A DNA stretch of 38,067 nt, taken from positions 1-38,067 of the IMG/VR virus record IMGVR_UViG_3300046780_000204; one strand, written 5' to 3'. Each line of letters begins with the position of its first letter. Positions within the stretch are counted from its first letter, which is position 1. This document shows positions 698-30,439 of this stretch, piece after piece. Origin of the DNA: a virus. The position numbers and the translations under genes are program-made. The notes under the pieces are model-generated. The model had not been told where the DNA came from, did no database searches, and saw nothing but the letters and a program-made list of their open reading frames with translations.

Positions 698-1018
698 ATG
701 AACACGGCAGACGAAATCGCCGAGGTCCCGATCGAGAAGCTGCGGGACGCCGTCAACGACGTGTCCATACAGCTCGAGGAACTGCGCGAGCGCATGGCGG
801 CCGTCATCAACGAGATGGCCTCGGATATCGCCGAGATCGCCGGGACGCGGCCGTTCCAGGACTACCAGGGCGTGGACATAGTGGGCGCCATCGAGGCGCT
901 CCTCGACGAGGCCGTCCTCATGCCCGGCACCCAGCGGCCGACGCTGCCGGACACGCCCGGCGCCCGCAAGGCCCTCCTCGCCCTCTACGACGCCGTGGGA
1001 CGCGACAAGCCAGAATGA
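698..1018 (+). CDS. Small acidic helical protein, unknown function
   Basis: This encodes 106 residues, rich in Glu, Asp and Ala, with a predicted coiled-coil stretch at roughly residues 10-45. The ATG at 698 was chosen because GGGGAGG lies about 8 nt upstream. An in-frame ATG at 641 would add 19 residues but has a poorer ribosome site. The stop overlaps the region carrying the AGGAGG of the next gene, so it is probably co-translated with the DUF1376 gene. No family was recognised. Its position at the head of the visible rightward early operon suggests an early accessory protein. Confidence 0.6.
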   Translation: MNTADEIAEVPIEKLRDAVNDVSIQLEELRERMAAVINEMASDIAEIAGTRPFQDYQGVDIVGAIEALLDEAVLMPGTQRPTLPDTPGARKALLALYDAVGRDKPE

Positions 1019-1029
1019 GGAGGCAAGCG

Positions 1030-1719
1030 ATGTCGCTCGATTGGTATCCTTGGTATGCGGCGCATTACCGCCGCGACACCCTCCACCTGACGCTTGCCGA
1101 AGATGGCGCCTACCGTCGCCTGATTGACGAGTACATGGCCCGCGGAGGGCCGCTCCCGGACGACGACACGGCCTTGGCGCGCATCCTGGGGACAACTATC
1201 CAGGAATGGCTTTCGGTTGCTCCTAAAATCAGGCCGTTTTTTCGCAAATCCGGGGATGTTTTGAAAAACCCAAGATGCGACAAGGAATTACATGCAAGAG
1301 CAATGCATGTGCATAGCAAACGCATCAACGCCAGGAAGGCTGCGGCCTCCCGATGGGAAAAACAAAATGAAACCAACGAACTAGATGCAAGTGCATTGCA
1401 GACGCAAAGCCCAAGCAATGCAGATGCAATGCAAAACGATGCCACACTACACTACAATACAAATCAACAGCCTTTCTTTGCTGAGCCGCGCGAGGAGTTA
1501 TCCACACCCCGCCCCAGCCAAAACCGCGCCGCTTCCCCAGCACTCGAAGCCGCCATCAAAAAAAAAGGCTGGAGCCCCCCTGACAAAGAAAGCGGACTTC
1601 CGAGGAAGGAAGGAAGGCAAGCAAACGGCCTCGGCGACGGTCGCAGCCTTGAGCAAATCGTCCGCGACAAAGGCTGGACTGCCGAAGAGCCACCCATCAC
1701 ATCGAAGCTGCTCGCATGA
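1030..1719 (+). CDS. DUF1376 (YdaU-like) phage protein
   Basis: The 229-residue product begins with a DUF1376 domain (residues ~3-100), recognisable from WYPWYAAHYRRDT, LAEDGAYRRLIDEY and the PLPDDDTALARILG segment. The C-terminal half is a low-complexity Gln/Asn/Ser linker. ATG 1030 is preceded by AGGAGG (1018-1023) at ideal spacing; the in-frame ATG at 1015 lies inside this ribosome site and is unlikely. DUF1376 proteins occur in the replication-initiation slot of many lambdoid phages, but their biochemistry is not established. The linker-coding DNA carries the candidate origin described separately, recalling ori within lambda gene O. The stop overlaps the methyltransferase start (ATGA). 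Confidence 0.85.
   Translation: MSLDWYPWYAAHYRRDTLHLTLAEDGAYRRLIDEYMARGGPLPDDDTALARILGTTIQEWLSVAPKIRPFFRKSGDVLKNPRCDKELHARAMHVHSKRINARKAAASRWEKQNETNELDASALQTQSPSNADAMQNDATLHYNTNQQPFFAEPREELSTPRPSQNRAASPALEAAIKKKGWSPPDKESGLPRKEGRQANGLGDGRSLEQIVRDKGWTAEEPPITSKLLA
1292..1506 (+). other. Candidate phage replication origin (iterons plus DnaA box)
   Basis: The octamer GCAATGCA occurs at 1300-1307, 1415-1422 and 1426-1433, and as its complement TGCATTGC at 1392-1399. Two copies sit in longer near-identical 16-mers (1292-1307 and 1385-1400; two mismatches). An AT-richer stretch follows at about 1434-1480, then a perfect consensus DnaA box, TTATCCACA, at 1498-1506. All of this lies within the DUF1376 reading frame. 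Iterons, an AT-rich segment and a DnaA box inside an initiator-position gene is the layout of lambda ori. The repeats are seen directly; origin function is inferred. Confidence 0.45.
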
Positions 1720-5418: not shown

Positions 5419-5790
5419 ATGGCCAAGAAGCCTAAAAGGGAATTTCAAGTTAATTCGAAATTTTCATTGAATTTCGGACAAAGACTTCGTGATGCTGCCG
5501 ATAGATGGAATATGGACGGAAAAGTTGGGCGTCTTGTTACGTACATAATAGAAAAAGATCATCCATTAGCTCGTAGAGGACTTAAGATACGCGACGAACT
5601 CATAGAGAAGAATAACATTCTAATAGAAAAACAGAACAAAATCATAGAGGAACAGAAAAAACTTTTGAAGAATTCATACGACGATGGCGTTGTGCGTGGC
5701 ATTATATGGGCTGTTGCCCAACCTAAGGAGGCCGTATTACTTGTCGAACGATGGAGAGTAATCCATGGCCAACGCGCTGCGACGGGCTGA
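5419..5790 (+). CDS. Ribbon-helix-helix-like protein with coiled coil, AT-rich gene
   Basis: The 123-residue product starts with a basic strand (KREFQVNSKFSLNF), then two helices (QRLRDAADRWN and GKVGRLVTYIIEKDH), the pattern of Arc/MetJ-type DNA-binding domains. Residues ~58-90 form a Lys/Glu/Ile/Asn coiled coil (LIEKNNILIEKQNKIIEEQ). The ribosome site GAGGAGGG is strong. The gene is conspicuously AT-rich beside its GC-rich neighbours, which suggests recent acquisition. It is preceded by a perfect 22-bp palindrome, so autoregulation is likely. It overlaps the next gene by 26 nt. DNA binding is inferred from the fold pattern, not from a close match. Confidence 0.65.
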   Translation: MAKKPKREFQVNSKFSLNFGQRLRDAADRWNMDGKVGRLVTYIIEKDHPLARRGLKIRDELIEKNNILIEKQNKIIEEQKKLLKNSYDDGVVRGIIWAVAQPKEAVLLVERWRVIHGQRAATG

Positions 5791-6064
5791 TCGGATGAAG
5801 GTCGAGACGATCGGCGGCGAGCAGTTCACGGACGCGGCCGAGGCCGTTGATGCCGTGCCGACCACGCTCTCGGTCGACCCGCAGACCGCCAAGCTTGAGA
5901 AGGTCAAGGCCATCCGGGCGCAGGCGCAGGCGTTCAAGGCATTGCTGCGGGAGCTCGGCTCCAACCGATCGTTCTCGATCTCCCGGCAGCGGATAGAGGA
6001 GGCCGTCCACTGGGCGGTCGATGGGATCATCAATGAGCGGACCACTGAAAGACACCCGACGTGA
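5765..6064 (+). CDS. Acb2-like hairpin-domain protein, candidate anti-CBASS
   Basis: This encodes 99 residues. The C-terminal half (about 48-90) reads as two antiparallel helices, FKALLRELGSNRSFSISRQR followed by IEEAVHWAVDGI. This matches the consensus feel of the Acb2/Tad1 hairpin domain, whose hallmark is R..S(I/L)....(L/I)EEA..WA...I. Known Acb2 proteins form hexamers that sequester cyclic oligonucleotide signals of CBASS and block host defence. The first ~45 residues are variable. GGAGAG precedes the ATG. It is the gene directly before the small terminase and overlaps it by 32 nt. The domain call is by pattern memory only; ligand-binding residues were not verified. Confidence 0.5.
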   Translation: MANALRRADRMKVETIGGEQFTDAAEAVDAVPTTLSVDPQTAKLEKVKAIRAQAQAFKALLRELGSNRSFSISRQRIEEAVHWAVDGIINERTTERHPT

Positions 6065-6503
6065 GTTGCTGGCCCAGGCGCTGGCATCCGGCAAGAGCAT
6101 GGTGGAGGCCAATGAACTCGCCGGCTATGCGAAAGGTAAGCCCTGCACCGGCACGAACGGCCATCGCCTCGCGCACCATCCCGCGGTGAGGGCGCGCATT
6201 GACGAAATCCAGGCCACCGCCATGGCCCGCACCCTGAAGCTCCAGGCCATCGCCGCGGTGCGCTCCGCGACCACCGTAGCCTCGCTGATCGCCGAGGCCG
6301 AGGAGGCCCGTGTCCTGGCGATGAAGATCAAAAATCCCGCCGCAGCCGTCGCCGCCATCAAGGAGAAGGGCATTCTCTCGGGCATGCGGATCGAGAAGAG
6401 CGAGCATCTGAACCGCAATGTTGAACAGCTCACCGACGACGAGCTTGCCGCCTATCTCACCACAGACGGCGGCGCGCCAGCTCCTGAAACGACGACGCAT
6501 TAG
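6033..6503 (+). CDS. Terminase small subunit
   Basis: This encodes 156 residues. An N-terminal helix-turn-helix-like part (ELLAQALASGKSMVEANELA) is followed by HHPAVRARIDEIQA and a long Ala/Glu helical region for oligomerisation. The end is disordered (GGAPAPETTTH). This is the DNA-recognition subunit that brings the packaging motor to the pac site. ATG 6033 was preferred over 6021 because the protein then begins MSGPLKDTRRELL, like related proteins. It overlaps the preceding gene by 32 nt and the large subunit start by 86 nt. The pac site itself could not be identified. Confidence 0.75.
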   Translation: MSGPLKDTRRELLAQALASGKSMVEANELAGYAKGKPCTGTNGHRLAHHPAVRARIDEIQATAMARTLKLQAIAAVRSATTVASLIAEAEEARVLAMKIKNPAAAVAAIKEKGILSGMRIEKSEHLNRNVEQLTDDELAAYLTTDGGAPAPETTTH

Positions 6504-7908
6504 GGCTTCGCTGGTAGCCTGGGCGCGCCACTGCGGCTATGAGCCGGCGCGGCACCATCGGTTGCTGATCGAGAAGCTGACGCAGGTTGCCAATGGCGAA
6601 ATCGATCGTCTGGCTGTCTTTATGCCGCCCGGCTCGGCCAAGTCGACTTACGGCTCGATACTGTTTCCGCCGTGGTTCATGGCTCGCTCGCCTGGCCGCT
6701 CGATCATTGCGGCCTCGCACACCACCGAGCTTGCGCAGAAATGGGGCCGCAAGGTCCGCAATCTGATCGCCGAGCATGGCCCGACGCTGGCGGCGGTTCT
6801 TTCGCAAGACAGCCAAGCAGCGGGACGCTGGGCGCTTGCGTCGGGTGGCGAATACTATGCGGCAGGCGTTGGAACAGGCATCACCGGCTTCCGCGCCGAT
6901 GGCGCCATCATCGACGACCCGATCCGGTCGCGCGAGGACGCGGACTCCGAGACGGTGAGGGAGCGAACCTGGGAGTGGTACAAATCGGACCTGCTGACGC
7001 GGCTGCGCCCAGGTGGCTTCGTGGTGCTCATTCAGACCAGATGGCACGAAGTGGACCTCGCCGGCATGGTGCTCGAGGAGATGGAGCGCGGTGGCGACCG
7101 CTGGAGCGTGCTGTCGCTGCCGGCGGAGGCCGAGGAGAACGACCCGCTGGGCCGCGCGCCCGGCGAATGGCTGTGGGATGATGCCTACGGCTATGCCAGG
7201 TTCCTGGCGCGGGAGAAGGCCACCCAGATACCGCGCAACTGGTCGGCGCTCTACCAGCAGCGCCCGACGCCTGAGACCGGAGACTACTTCAAGGAGGAGT
7301 GGCTGCGGCCGTATACGAAGGCGCCGGCGCGCGCCACGCTCAACGTCTATGGCGCGAGCGACTACGCGGTAACGAGCGACGGCGGCGACTACACGGTGCA
7401 TGTGATCGTGGGCGTCGATCCCGATGGCAAGATGTGGCTGCTCGACCTGTGGCGCAAGCAGGCATCGTCCGATGTCTGGGTCGAGGGCGTCTGCGACCTC
7501 GTCCTGGAATGGAAGCCGTGGCTGTGGGCCGAGGAGCAGGGCCAGATCAAGTCCGGCATCGGGCCGTTCCTCGATCAAAGGCTGATCGAGCGCAAGGCCT
7601 GGATCGGTCGCGAGCAGTTTCCGACCCGCGGCGATAAGGCGGTGCGGGCGCAGTCCATCCGCGGCCGCATGGCGCTGCAGGGGCTGCACGTCCCGACCGC
7701 GGCGCCCTGGTATGCGGCATTCCGCTCCGAGCTCCTGAGCTTCCCGGCCGGCAAGCACGACGACCAGGTGGACGCGCTGGGGCTGCTGGGGCAGCTCCTC
7801 GACCAGGTGTCGAGCGGGCGCAAGCCCAAGGCGCCGATCCTCGAGGAAGAGGTCGGCTACAAGCCGTTCGAGAACGAGCCCGTCACCGATAGCTTCCTGG
7901 CAATGTAG
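6418..7908 (+). CDS. Terminase large subunit
   Basis: The 496-residue product is the ATPase-nuclease of the packaging motor. Walker A is MPPGSAKST (69-77) and Walker B is AIIDD (163-167). A coupling motif is VLIQTRWH (203-210). The RNase-H-like nuclease has acidic residues in ASDYAVTSDGGD (Asp315), AEEQGQ (372-373) and GKHDDQVDAL (Asp448-449, 452). The start at 6418 keeps the conserved N-terminal AARQLLKRRRIRASL but overlaps the small subunit by 86 nt and lacks a strong ribosome site. With the P22-like portal, headful packaging is likely. Confidence 0.93.
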   Translation: MLNSSPTTSLPPISPQTAARQLLKRRRIRASLVAWARHCGYEPARHHRLLIEKLTQVANGEIDRLAVFMPPGSAKSTYGSILFPPWFMARSPGRSIIAASHTTELAQKWGRKVRNLIAEHGPTLAAVLSQDSQAAGRWALASGGEYYAAGVGTGITGFRADGAIIDDPIRSREDADSETVRERTWEWYKSDLLTRLRPGGFVVLIQTRWHEVDLAGMVLEEMERGGDRWSVLSLPAEAEENDPLGRAPGEWLWDDAYGYARFLAREKATQIPRNWSALYQQRPTPETGDYFKEEWLRPYTKAPARATLNVYGASDYAVTSDGGDYTVHVIVGVDPDGKMWLLDLWRKQASSDVWVEGVCDLVLEWKPWLWAEEQGQIKSGIGPFLDQRLIERKAWIGREQFPTRGDKAVRAQSIRGRMALQGLHVPTAAPWYAAFRSELLSFPAGKHDDQVDALGLLGQLLDQVSSGRKPKAPILEEEVGYKPFENEPVTDSFLAM

Positions 7909-28574: not shown

Positions 28575-30439
28575 GCAATATGCCGGCGAACGTCCGCATC
28601 AGCGCCCAATTTCCATTCCCCGCCGGGGTTGCTGGCGCGACGCCGATCGCCATCACCAAGACCAACGGGATCTGGGCGGTGGCGCTGCCGCTCGGTGCGC
28701 TCGCAACGCAATTGCCGGCCGGCGGCAGCCTGACGACAGATTATCTGCTGGTCTGGGACTCGCTCTCGGGCACATATTTCAAGATGCCGGTCTCGAATAT
28801 CCCGACCGGCCCGGCTGGCCCGGCGGGTCCGGCCGGTCCCACAGGACCAGCCGGCGGAATAGCGGATGCACCGTCAGACGGCGTGACCTATGGCCGTAAG
28901 AATGCCGCCTGGAACAATCTCGACGTCATCTACGCACCGGCAAATTTCATCCAGGCGGGTGTTGGTGCCGTAACGCGCAGCATACAGAGCAAGGCGCGCG
29001 AGCAGATCAGCGCCCTCGACTTTGGTGCAATGGGGGATGGAGTAACGGACGACACTGCGCCAATTCAGGCCGCGATCAATACTATCGCAGCCACCGGCAA
29101 CGGTGCGCTCTATCTTCCGGGCGGCTACAGCTACAAGGCATCAGGACTCACGTGGGGCGGGGCGGGTCGCCTTAAAATTTACGGCGATGGACCGGGTACG
29201 TTTTTAATAATGGGGACCACGACGGGCATCCTGTTTACGGCGACAGCGGGTTACGTCGATATTGAGGGGATGTCGGTTTTTCATCCCGTGCAAGGCGCTT
29301 CGACCGCCGGCTATTTCTTCAAATTTTCCAATACCCTGGCAATTATCCGCAATGTTCAATTCTTCAACGGGTTCAACGTTGCTCGCTGGGAGGACGGTTG
29401 CTTTCAAGGTGGCGCGGCCAATATCACGGCTCGCGGCTTGAAAAATGACTTGTTCCAAGTCGATGTGTCGCCTTTGGCCGGGCCAATAGGCGGAAACATG
29501 ATCTTCGAAAGGATAAACTCACAGGCTGATTCCACCAATATAGGGACCGGCTTGCGCCTGGTGTCCGGCGATGGAATTCACGTTATAAATAGTGCAATCC
29601 TGGGATTCTTTAACGGTATTTCTGCAATTCCATCCGCGAGCCGAAATTATCTTGCCAACCTGTATTTTACCGATGTTGTTGTTGACGGCGCTGGCGGCCC
29701 GGCCGGGCAGGGACCGGGTTGGTTCTTCGACGGCACGAGCGGGCCGCTCTTGCGTGTGTTCATGTCCAATTGCTGGGCGGGTGCGATTGCCGGCGGCAAT
29801 GGAGTGGAGATAAAGAACACCAAGGTATTCTCGTGGGTGTTGGGTATGATCATCGACTGCGGGCAGAGTGGAATTGTAGTTGATGTCGGGAGCCGGGAGG
29901 TTTCACTTGAGGGCATTGTCGTCACCGGTAATTCTGCTCTGTCTTCCTCCACCTATCACGGCATCGTGGTATTCACCGGCTCGGATCGAGTCAGCGTCAA
30001 GAATTGCCGATCGGGAGCGACCTACAACGGCACGGACGGAACGACGCAAACCAATACCCAGGGGTACGGCCTCATCGTTGCCGATCCGGGCACCACCAAT
30101 TACCAACTGATCGGCAATGACGTTTCCGGCAATCTCACTGCTGGTCTGCTGGACAACGGCGGCGCGGGCGGACGCAGGATTGTAAGGGACAATCCCGGCT
30201 ACAATCCGATCGGGATAAGCAACATCACATTGGGGGCATCGCCGGCAACCTATACCGCCAAGGCGACACCGGAGACAGTCTACATTGCCGGCGGGACGGT
30301 ATCCAACATAACAATCGGAGGCATCACGGTGGCGGTTTCCGTGGGCACTATCCCGGTCGTCCTTGCGCTGAATCCAAATCAATCAATGGTGGTGACATAT
30401 ACCGCCGCGCCGACGATTACGACCACGAACAAACAATAG
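28571..30439 (+). CDS. Tailspike with collagen-like linker and pectate-lyase-fold domain
   Basis: This encodes 622 residues. Residues 1-78 form a virion-anchoring domain, 79-96 a collagen-like (Gly-Pro-Ala)n stalk, and 135-170 carry the hallmark SALDFGAMGDGVTDDTAPIQ of the pectate-lyase superfamily spike head. Residues ~170-540 are a right-handed beta-helix with repeated short strands (VEIKNTKVFSWVLGMIIDCG). The last ~90 residues are a beta cap. Such spikes bind and often cleave host surface polysaccharide, fixing host range. Catalytic residues cannot be assigned by eye. Confidence 0.85.
   Translation: MSNMPANVRISAQFPFPAGVAGATPIAITKTNGIWAVALPLGALATQLPAGGSLTTDYLLVWDSLSGTYFKMPVSNIPTGPAGPAGPAGPTGPAGGIADAPSDGVTYGRKNAAWNNLDVIYAPANFIQAGVGAVTRSIQSKAREQISALDFGAMGDGVTDDTAPIQAAINTIAATGNGALYLPGGYSYKASGLTWGGAGRLKIYGDGPGTFLIMGTTTGILFTATAGYVDIEGMSVFHPVQGASTAGYFFKFSNTLAIIRNVQFFNGFNVARWEDGCFQGGAANITARGLKNDLFQVDVSPLAGPIGGNMIFERINSQADSTNIGTGLRLVSGDGIHVINSAILGFFNGISAIPSASRNYLANLYFTDVVVDGAGGPAGQGPGWFFDGTSGPLLRVFMSNCWAGAIAGGNGVEIKNTKVFSWVLGMIIDCGQSGIVVDVGSREVSLEGIVVTGNSALSSSTYHGIVVFTGSDRVSVKNCRSGATYNGTDGTTQTNTQGYGLIVADPGTTNYQLIGNDVSGNLTAGLLDNGGAGGRRIVRDNPGYNPIGISNITLGASPATYTAKATPETVYIAGGTVSNITIGGITVAVSVGTIPVVLALNPNQSMVVTYTAAPTITTTNKQ

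Follow-up and report, generated by a model that had tools for sequence, protein, structure and literature searches.

The DUF1376 gene at positions 1015-1719 of the window very probably encodes a replication initiator and carries its own origin of replication within its coding sequence. The window, that is, the whole stretch of DNA analysed here, is a virus record of 38,067 bases from a temperate phage with an integrase, a P22-like portal protein, and a terminase. In the best reading of our results, DUF1376 is a winged-helix origin-binding domain, and the proteins bearing it are initiators of the lambda O or RepA_N kind with an intragenic origin. The N-terminal DUF1376 domain would bind short iterons, with the core GCAWTGC in the window, within the linker-coding DNA. 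With the iterons one helical turn apart, the bound copies would all face the same side of the DNA and could unwind the AT-rich stretch immediately 3' of the iterons. The protein's C-terminal part may recruit a DnaB-type helicase or a loader, often the product of the next gene, or the equivalent host protein where the phage encodes none. Intragenic origins are known from lambda O and from RepA_N plasmids, and database annotations already suggest that some DUF1376 proteins act in replication; the family-wide generalisation to DUF1376 appears to be new. The accessible text of open-access papers naming DUF1376 describes neither an origin nor iterons.

Repeats in the DUF1376 gene of the window

The open reading frame has a product of 234 amino acids, with the ATG at 1030 as the second possible start, and its protein scores 69.4 bits against PF07120, above the gathering cut-off of 30.1. 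The sequence-only reading of the window had placed four octamers on two strands within a 134-bp stretch inside this gene, and a genome-wide count of GCAATGCA bears this out. Seven copies were found in total: four at 1300(+), 1392(-), 1415(+), and 1426(+), all inside the DUF1376 ORF around and after the end of the domain, and only three isolated copies in the rest of the 38 kb (8427, 23926, and 33734). Dinucleotide shuffles of the whole window held 2.58 copies on average and never attained seven. When one mismatch was allowed, the quasi-palindromic core GCAWTGC occurred at 1300/1311 and at 1393/1404/1415/1426, in an exact 11-bp register inside each array (Table 1).

Table 1. Features in and around the DUF1376 gene, in positions of the window
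Feature	Position	Strand	Basis
DUF1376 gene, proposed origin-binding initiator	1015..1719	+	Pfam PF07120 3.5e-19; PHROG 'primosomal protein' 9.1e-23
Segment swapped for unrelated DNA in otherwise near-identical phages; domain and putative origin linker	1019..~1571	+	phage comparison
DUF1376 domain, proposed winged-helix origin-binding domain	1042..1290	+	AF2 model; structural matches are plasmid initiator N-terminal domains
Putative iteron GCAATGC, first array	1300..1306	+	GCAATGCA / core match
Putative degenerate iteron GCATAGC, 11 bp past the 1300 copy	1311..1317	+	core with at most one mismatch
Putative iteron (GCATTGC on the + strand), second array, 11-bp register	1393..1399	-	GCAATGCA / core match
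Putative degenerate iteron GCAAAGC, second array, 11-bp register	1404..1410	+	core with at most one mismatch
Putative iteron GCAATGC, second array, 11-bp register	1415..1421	+	GCAATGCA / core match
Putative iteron GCAATGC, second array, 11-bp register	1426..1432	+	GCAATGCA / core match
AT-rich stretch, proposed unwinding element, directly 3' of the last iteron	1433..1462	+	63% AT vs 38% window mean; position of the family-wide AT peak
Perfect DnaA box TTATCCACA, role doubtful	1498..1506	+	0.11 expected from composition; boxes not enriched in the family
C-terminal tail (...RSLEQIVRDKGWTAEEPPITSKLLA), also in phages with other N-terminal domains	1572..1716	+	phage comparison

In 2000 synonymous-codon shuffles of the window gene, the pairs at lag 11 gave p=0.0035 and the exact cores p=0.001, both for a motif picked post hoc. 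The unbiased statistics for this gene alone were modest, with p=0.01 for the maximum number of copies of any 7-mer and p=0.09 for any 7-mer at lag 11 or 22. Because the motif was chosen post hoc and the unbiased values are modest, the window gene by itself is only suggestive, and the conclusion is borne by the family-wide test described below.

The AT-richer stretch was likewise found as described, the GC content falling to 44-50% in 1201-1500 against 62% window-wide. The perfect DnaA box, also counted as part of the origin in the sequence-only reading, is present in the window; as a feature of the family it did not hold up, with three boxes in 121 kb of DUF1376 sequence against eight in 312 kb of controls. 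We therefore regard it as no more than a possible, lineage-specific component of the origin. GC skew, suggested as a check, did not mark the site: the minimum of the window lies at 28952, and two circular DUF1376 phages have theirs 3 and 12 kb away from the gene. We therefore regard GC skew as uninformative here and rejected it as an origin marker.

Linker repeats across the DUF1376 family

The search for iterons in other DUF1376 genes, likewise proposed from the window sequence, was strongly positive, far above both neighbouring genes and synonymous shuffles. We gathered 366 loci, drawing on viral contigs, genomes, and named phages, and from these a test set of 157 non-redundant DUF1376 genes (<60% identity) in phages of many bacteria was compared with 407 neighbouring ORFs as controls. 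An exact 7-mer repeat at lag 11 was present in 52.9% of the DUF1376 genes as opposed to 3.9% of the neighbouring ORFs; the corresponding values were 33% and 5.4% at lag 22, and 42% and 14% at lag 12. Most other lags that are not multiples of three stayed close to or at background, with 7, 14, 23, 34, and 35 as the main exceptions. No 7-mer repeat at lags 11, 12, 22, or 23 was found in 33 of the 157 genes.

The signal is concentrated just 3' of the domain, where a large share of the 157 genes have repeats spaced by 11 bp (or 12). Within a linker window of 170 bp starting just before the end of the DUF1376 domain, the lag-11 repeat occurred in 45.2% of the genes but in only 0.5% of random windows in neighbouring genes, whereas lags 10, 13, 20, and 25 gave no signal (7.0% vs 5.2% in controls). 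Synonymous shuffling reduced the lag-11/22 matches from 3.46 to 0.30 per DUF1376 gene and left the controls unchanged (0.11 and 0.12). As 11 is not a multiple of three, consecutive copies fall in different reading frames; among the 71 genes with an 11-bp linker array, every one translates its iteron in two or three frames. The loss on shuffling together with the frame rotation indicates selection on the DNA and not on the peptide. Because similar arrays with 11-base spacing occupy the same place in so many DUF1376 genes, the family most likely encodes initiators carrying their own origin.

The linkers have a common anatomy across the 157 genes, in which the domain is followed by the iterons and these by AT-rich DNA. 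The iterons lie 0-100 bp past the end of the domain, with a median of +49. The 60 bp that follow the last iteron on its 3' side have an AT excess of 8-10 points over the locus mean, with little elsewhere, and 7-bp tandem repeats are concentrated in the same 60 bp. GCAWTGC is the commonest iteron, with 6.63 copies per kb in linkers against 0.28 per kb in controls (about 24-fold), and at least two copies occur in 61 of the 157 linkers. In one group of viral relatives, the exact copies number four to nine, and in L017 as many as eight follow one another 11 bp apart. Other DUF1376 genes use different iteron words, such as GTTCGCA, ATGCTCC, GTTCAAC, and AACGGGC. A second iteron cluster, 60-140 bp before the end of the domain, is found in 24 of the 83 genes with linker iterons; the domain-coding part holds 1.19 iteron copies per gene compared with 0.20 after shuffling.

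In the linkers of three loci (L028, L125, and L014), AT-richer tandem repeats of 6-7 bp follow right after the iterons, for example four copies of CAAGAAC and seven of GATAACGA. These are possibly the zone of opening, and the 7-bp repeats, too, run out of frame.

Domain fold, neighbouring genes, and cassette exchange

The AF2 model of the domain has a pLDDT of 92-98 across most of residues 11-110. Its best VIA-align matches are the N-terminal domains of RepA_N initiators (4pql, 4pt7, 4pta, and 5kbj; Z 6.9-5.8 over 78-80 residues), followed somewhat lower by the N-terminal domain of DnaD (Z 5.8); all Z scores stay under 8, below the level that proves kinship, and unrelated winged-helix proteins score nearly as high. 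Foldseek with the same model returned no match at E<=0.001, the top matches being MarR-type regulators, and a profile search of PDB sequences returned no initiator. RepA_N (PF06970) is not among the Pfam matches listed at E<=1 for 90 DUF1376 members. The window protein has no sequence match to Phage_rep_O, DUF1376 being its only Pfam match.

The genes directly 3' of DUF1376 point to replication. DnaB-type helicases account for 17 of 102, and the rest include genes of IstB/DnaC-type, DnaA-type, helicase, and lambda-P-like proteins. DUF1376 is followed by DnaB in named phages of Vibrio, Acinetobacter, and Leptolyngbya, and by a DnaC-like gene in Rac-type phages. PHROGs labels relatives as primosomal proteins; the C-terminal part of YdaU matches the PHROG 'replication initiation O-like' at 2e-24, and that of the L017 protein matches 'replication initiation protein'. 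No helicase or loader gene was found adjoining the DUF1376 gene of the window, where the next gene encodes a C5 methylase.

In the window and in its relative L002, the end of the DUF1376 gene is overlapped by this C5 cytosine methylase gene (1716-2543), which the other close relatives lack; in Vibrio phage 1.003.O, a C5 methylase likewise comes after the replication genes. On the other side, positions 34-561 encode a phage-borne protein ending in a PEP-CTERM/VPLPA-CTERM-like sorting signal, which scores slightly below the curated cut-offs and is unusual on a phage protein; the DNA of 34-561 is 86-95% identical in L002 and L006.

Comparison of near-identical phages showed that the domain and the linker were replaced together. 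L005 matches the window at 98.2% identity across 78-1018 and at 99.7% across 5749-7296, and L006 and L007 are 95-96% identical to it just upstream of the exchanged segment. All three have unrelated DNA in place of the segment from about 1019 to about 1572, while they have the C-terminal tail and the subsequent genes in common with the window. Exchange of the domain and the linker as a unit is expected if the two recognise each other. Only weak repeats are seen in the swapped cassettes of L003 and L005. We propose that the tail contacts a helicase, a loader, or a host factor.

The N-terminal domain of the replacing cassette in L006 (1948-2589) and L007 (3575-4216) is not DUF1376; it has a weak 'replisome organizer' match and no Pfam hit, and the linker DNA of this cassette holds three imperfect 12-bp tandem units, CTGTCGCAGCAC, CTGCCGCAACAC, and GTGCCGCGACAG. 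Among short DUF1376 proteins, those of different phages share a similar C-terminal peptide (SLEQIVRDKGWTAEE... in the window, SLDEIVRAKGWVP in L144, and DLASIIKQKGWA in L123), which is a short candidate contact motif for a helicase, a loader, or a host factor.

Known initiators and alternative explanations

The layout likened to lambda ori from the window sequence, with DUF1376 proteins as initiators, gains support from the repeats, the AT-rich stretch, the replication neighbours, the O-like C-terminus of YdaU, and the cassette exchange. In lambda O, the iterons and the AT-rich tract after them lie midway through the initiator gene (PMC7466680; annotated in NC_001416), and our analysis of the O gene recovered repeats at lags 20, 23, 44, and 67 with a 68% AT tract past the iterons. 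Relatives of lambda O served as a positive control; these were near-identical and told us little more than lambda itself did. DUF1376 genes share with lambda O an N-terminal DNA-binding domain (a predicted one in DUF1376), the order of iterons and AT-rich tract inside the gene, and, often among the relatives, although none was found in the window, a helicase-loader gene directly 3'. They differ in the lack of a sequence match to Phage_rep_O and in the iterons themselves, which are inverted repeats of about 18-19 bp spaced by 20-24 bp in lambda and cores of about 7-10 bp spaced by 11 or 12 bp in DUF1376 genes.

Similarly, the N-terminal domain of pSK41 Rep binds four Rep boxes, which sit at the centre of the rep gene and encode a dispensable linker (PMC5703833), whereas the iterons of PLE RepA lie in a non-coding region, NCR3 (PMC7145576). 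The DUF1376 model comes structurally closest to such RepA_N domains (pSK41 Rep and PLE RepA), although with Z<8. Unlike RepA_N proteins, DUF1376 proteins show no sequence match to that family, have different C-terminal parts, and are encoded by phages, mostly of Proteobacteria, and not by plasmids.

The E. coli Rac prophage has an active origin, oriJ (PMC3945230); the available text of the papers mentioning oriJ does not give its exact mapped position. The Rac gene ydaU is a DUF1376 gene and adjoins the DnaC-like ydaV. Its linker contains the 10-mer TGTTCAAACA three times, two direct and one inverted, and then an A/T-rich stretch. YdaU thus shares with the window gene the Pfam domain, the linker repeats, and the A/T-rich stretch after them, and differs in the sequence of the iteron.

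We weighed three other explanations of the arrays. DUF1376 could be a transcriptional regulator that binds within its own gene to control an early operon, with no origin involved, as would fit the predicted winged-helix fold and the MarR-type regulators that head the Foldseek matches. We consider this improbable, because the AT-rich stretch lies on the 3' side of the repeats, the neighbours encode helicases, loaders, and DnaA-like proteins, and the C-terminal half of YdaU is O-like. Operators, moreover, usually lie at promoters and not in linker-coding DNA. Still less probable is that the gene contains, by coincidence, another cis element of the phage, such as a partition site, a pac site, or a recombination hot spot. 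Recombination at the borders of the exchanged segment would suit a hot spot, and the P22-like portal makes headful packaging plausible. The small terminase gene, which is a usual location of pac, is found more than 4 kb away at 6021-6503, however, and the array follows DUF1376 beside replication genes in phages of unrelated build, including those with contractile tails.

That the repeats merely reflect the peptide, with codon bias in low-complexity Asn/Ala/Met/Gln linkers producing them without any selection on DNA, seems to us extremely unlikely. The linkers are of low complexity, and the 12-bp class is in frame (for example, the APSN repeats of L315), but an 11-bp period is incompatible with an in-frame peptide repeat, and more than 90% of the signal is lost on synonymous shuffling while neighbouring genes stay at background. 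The shuffles and the frame rotation largely rule out this explanation for the family.

The preferred reading of DUF1376 proteins as initiators with an intragenic origin extends to a broader proposal, which we regard as about evenly balanced between true and false. DUF1376 would be a widespread, unrecognised class of initiators in which the domain and the origin form one exchangeable cassette on varied C-termini. Iterons spaced by 11 bp would stack the subunits on one face of the DNA beside an opening zone that would in many cases consist of 7-bp tandem repeats, an arrangement unlike that of lambda, and oriJ of Rac would be the linker of ydaU. A large family of 'unknown function' would thereby gain a specific, testable function, and the origins of many phages and prophages, including Rac of E. 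coli K-12, could be read from the gene. DUF1376 genes would also offer a wide natural range of initiator/iteron pairs in which to examine origin recognition and its exchange among phages, as well as short, self-contained origins for vectors in bacteria that have few such tools.
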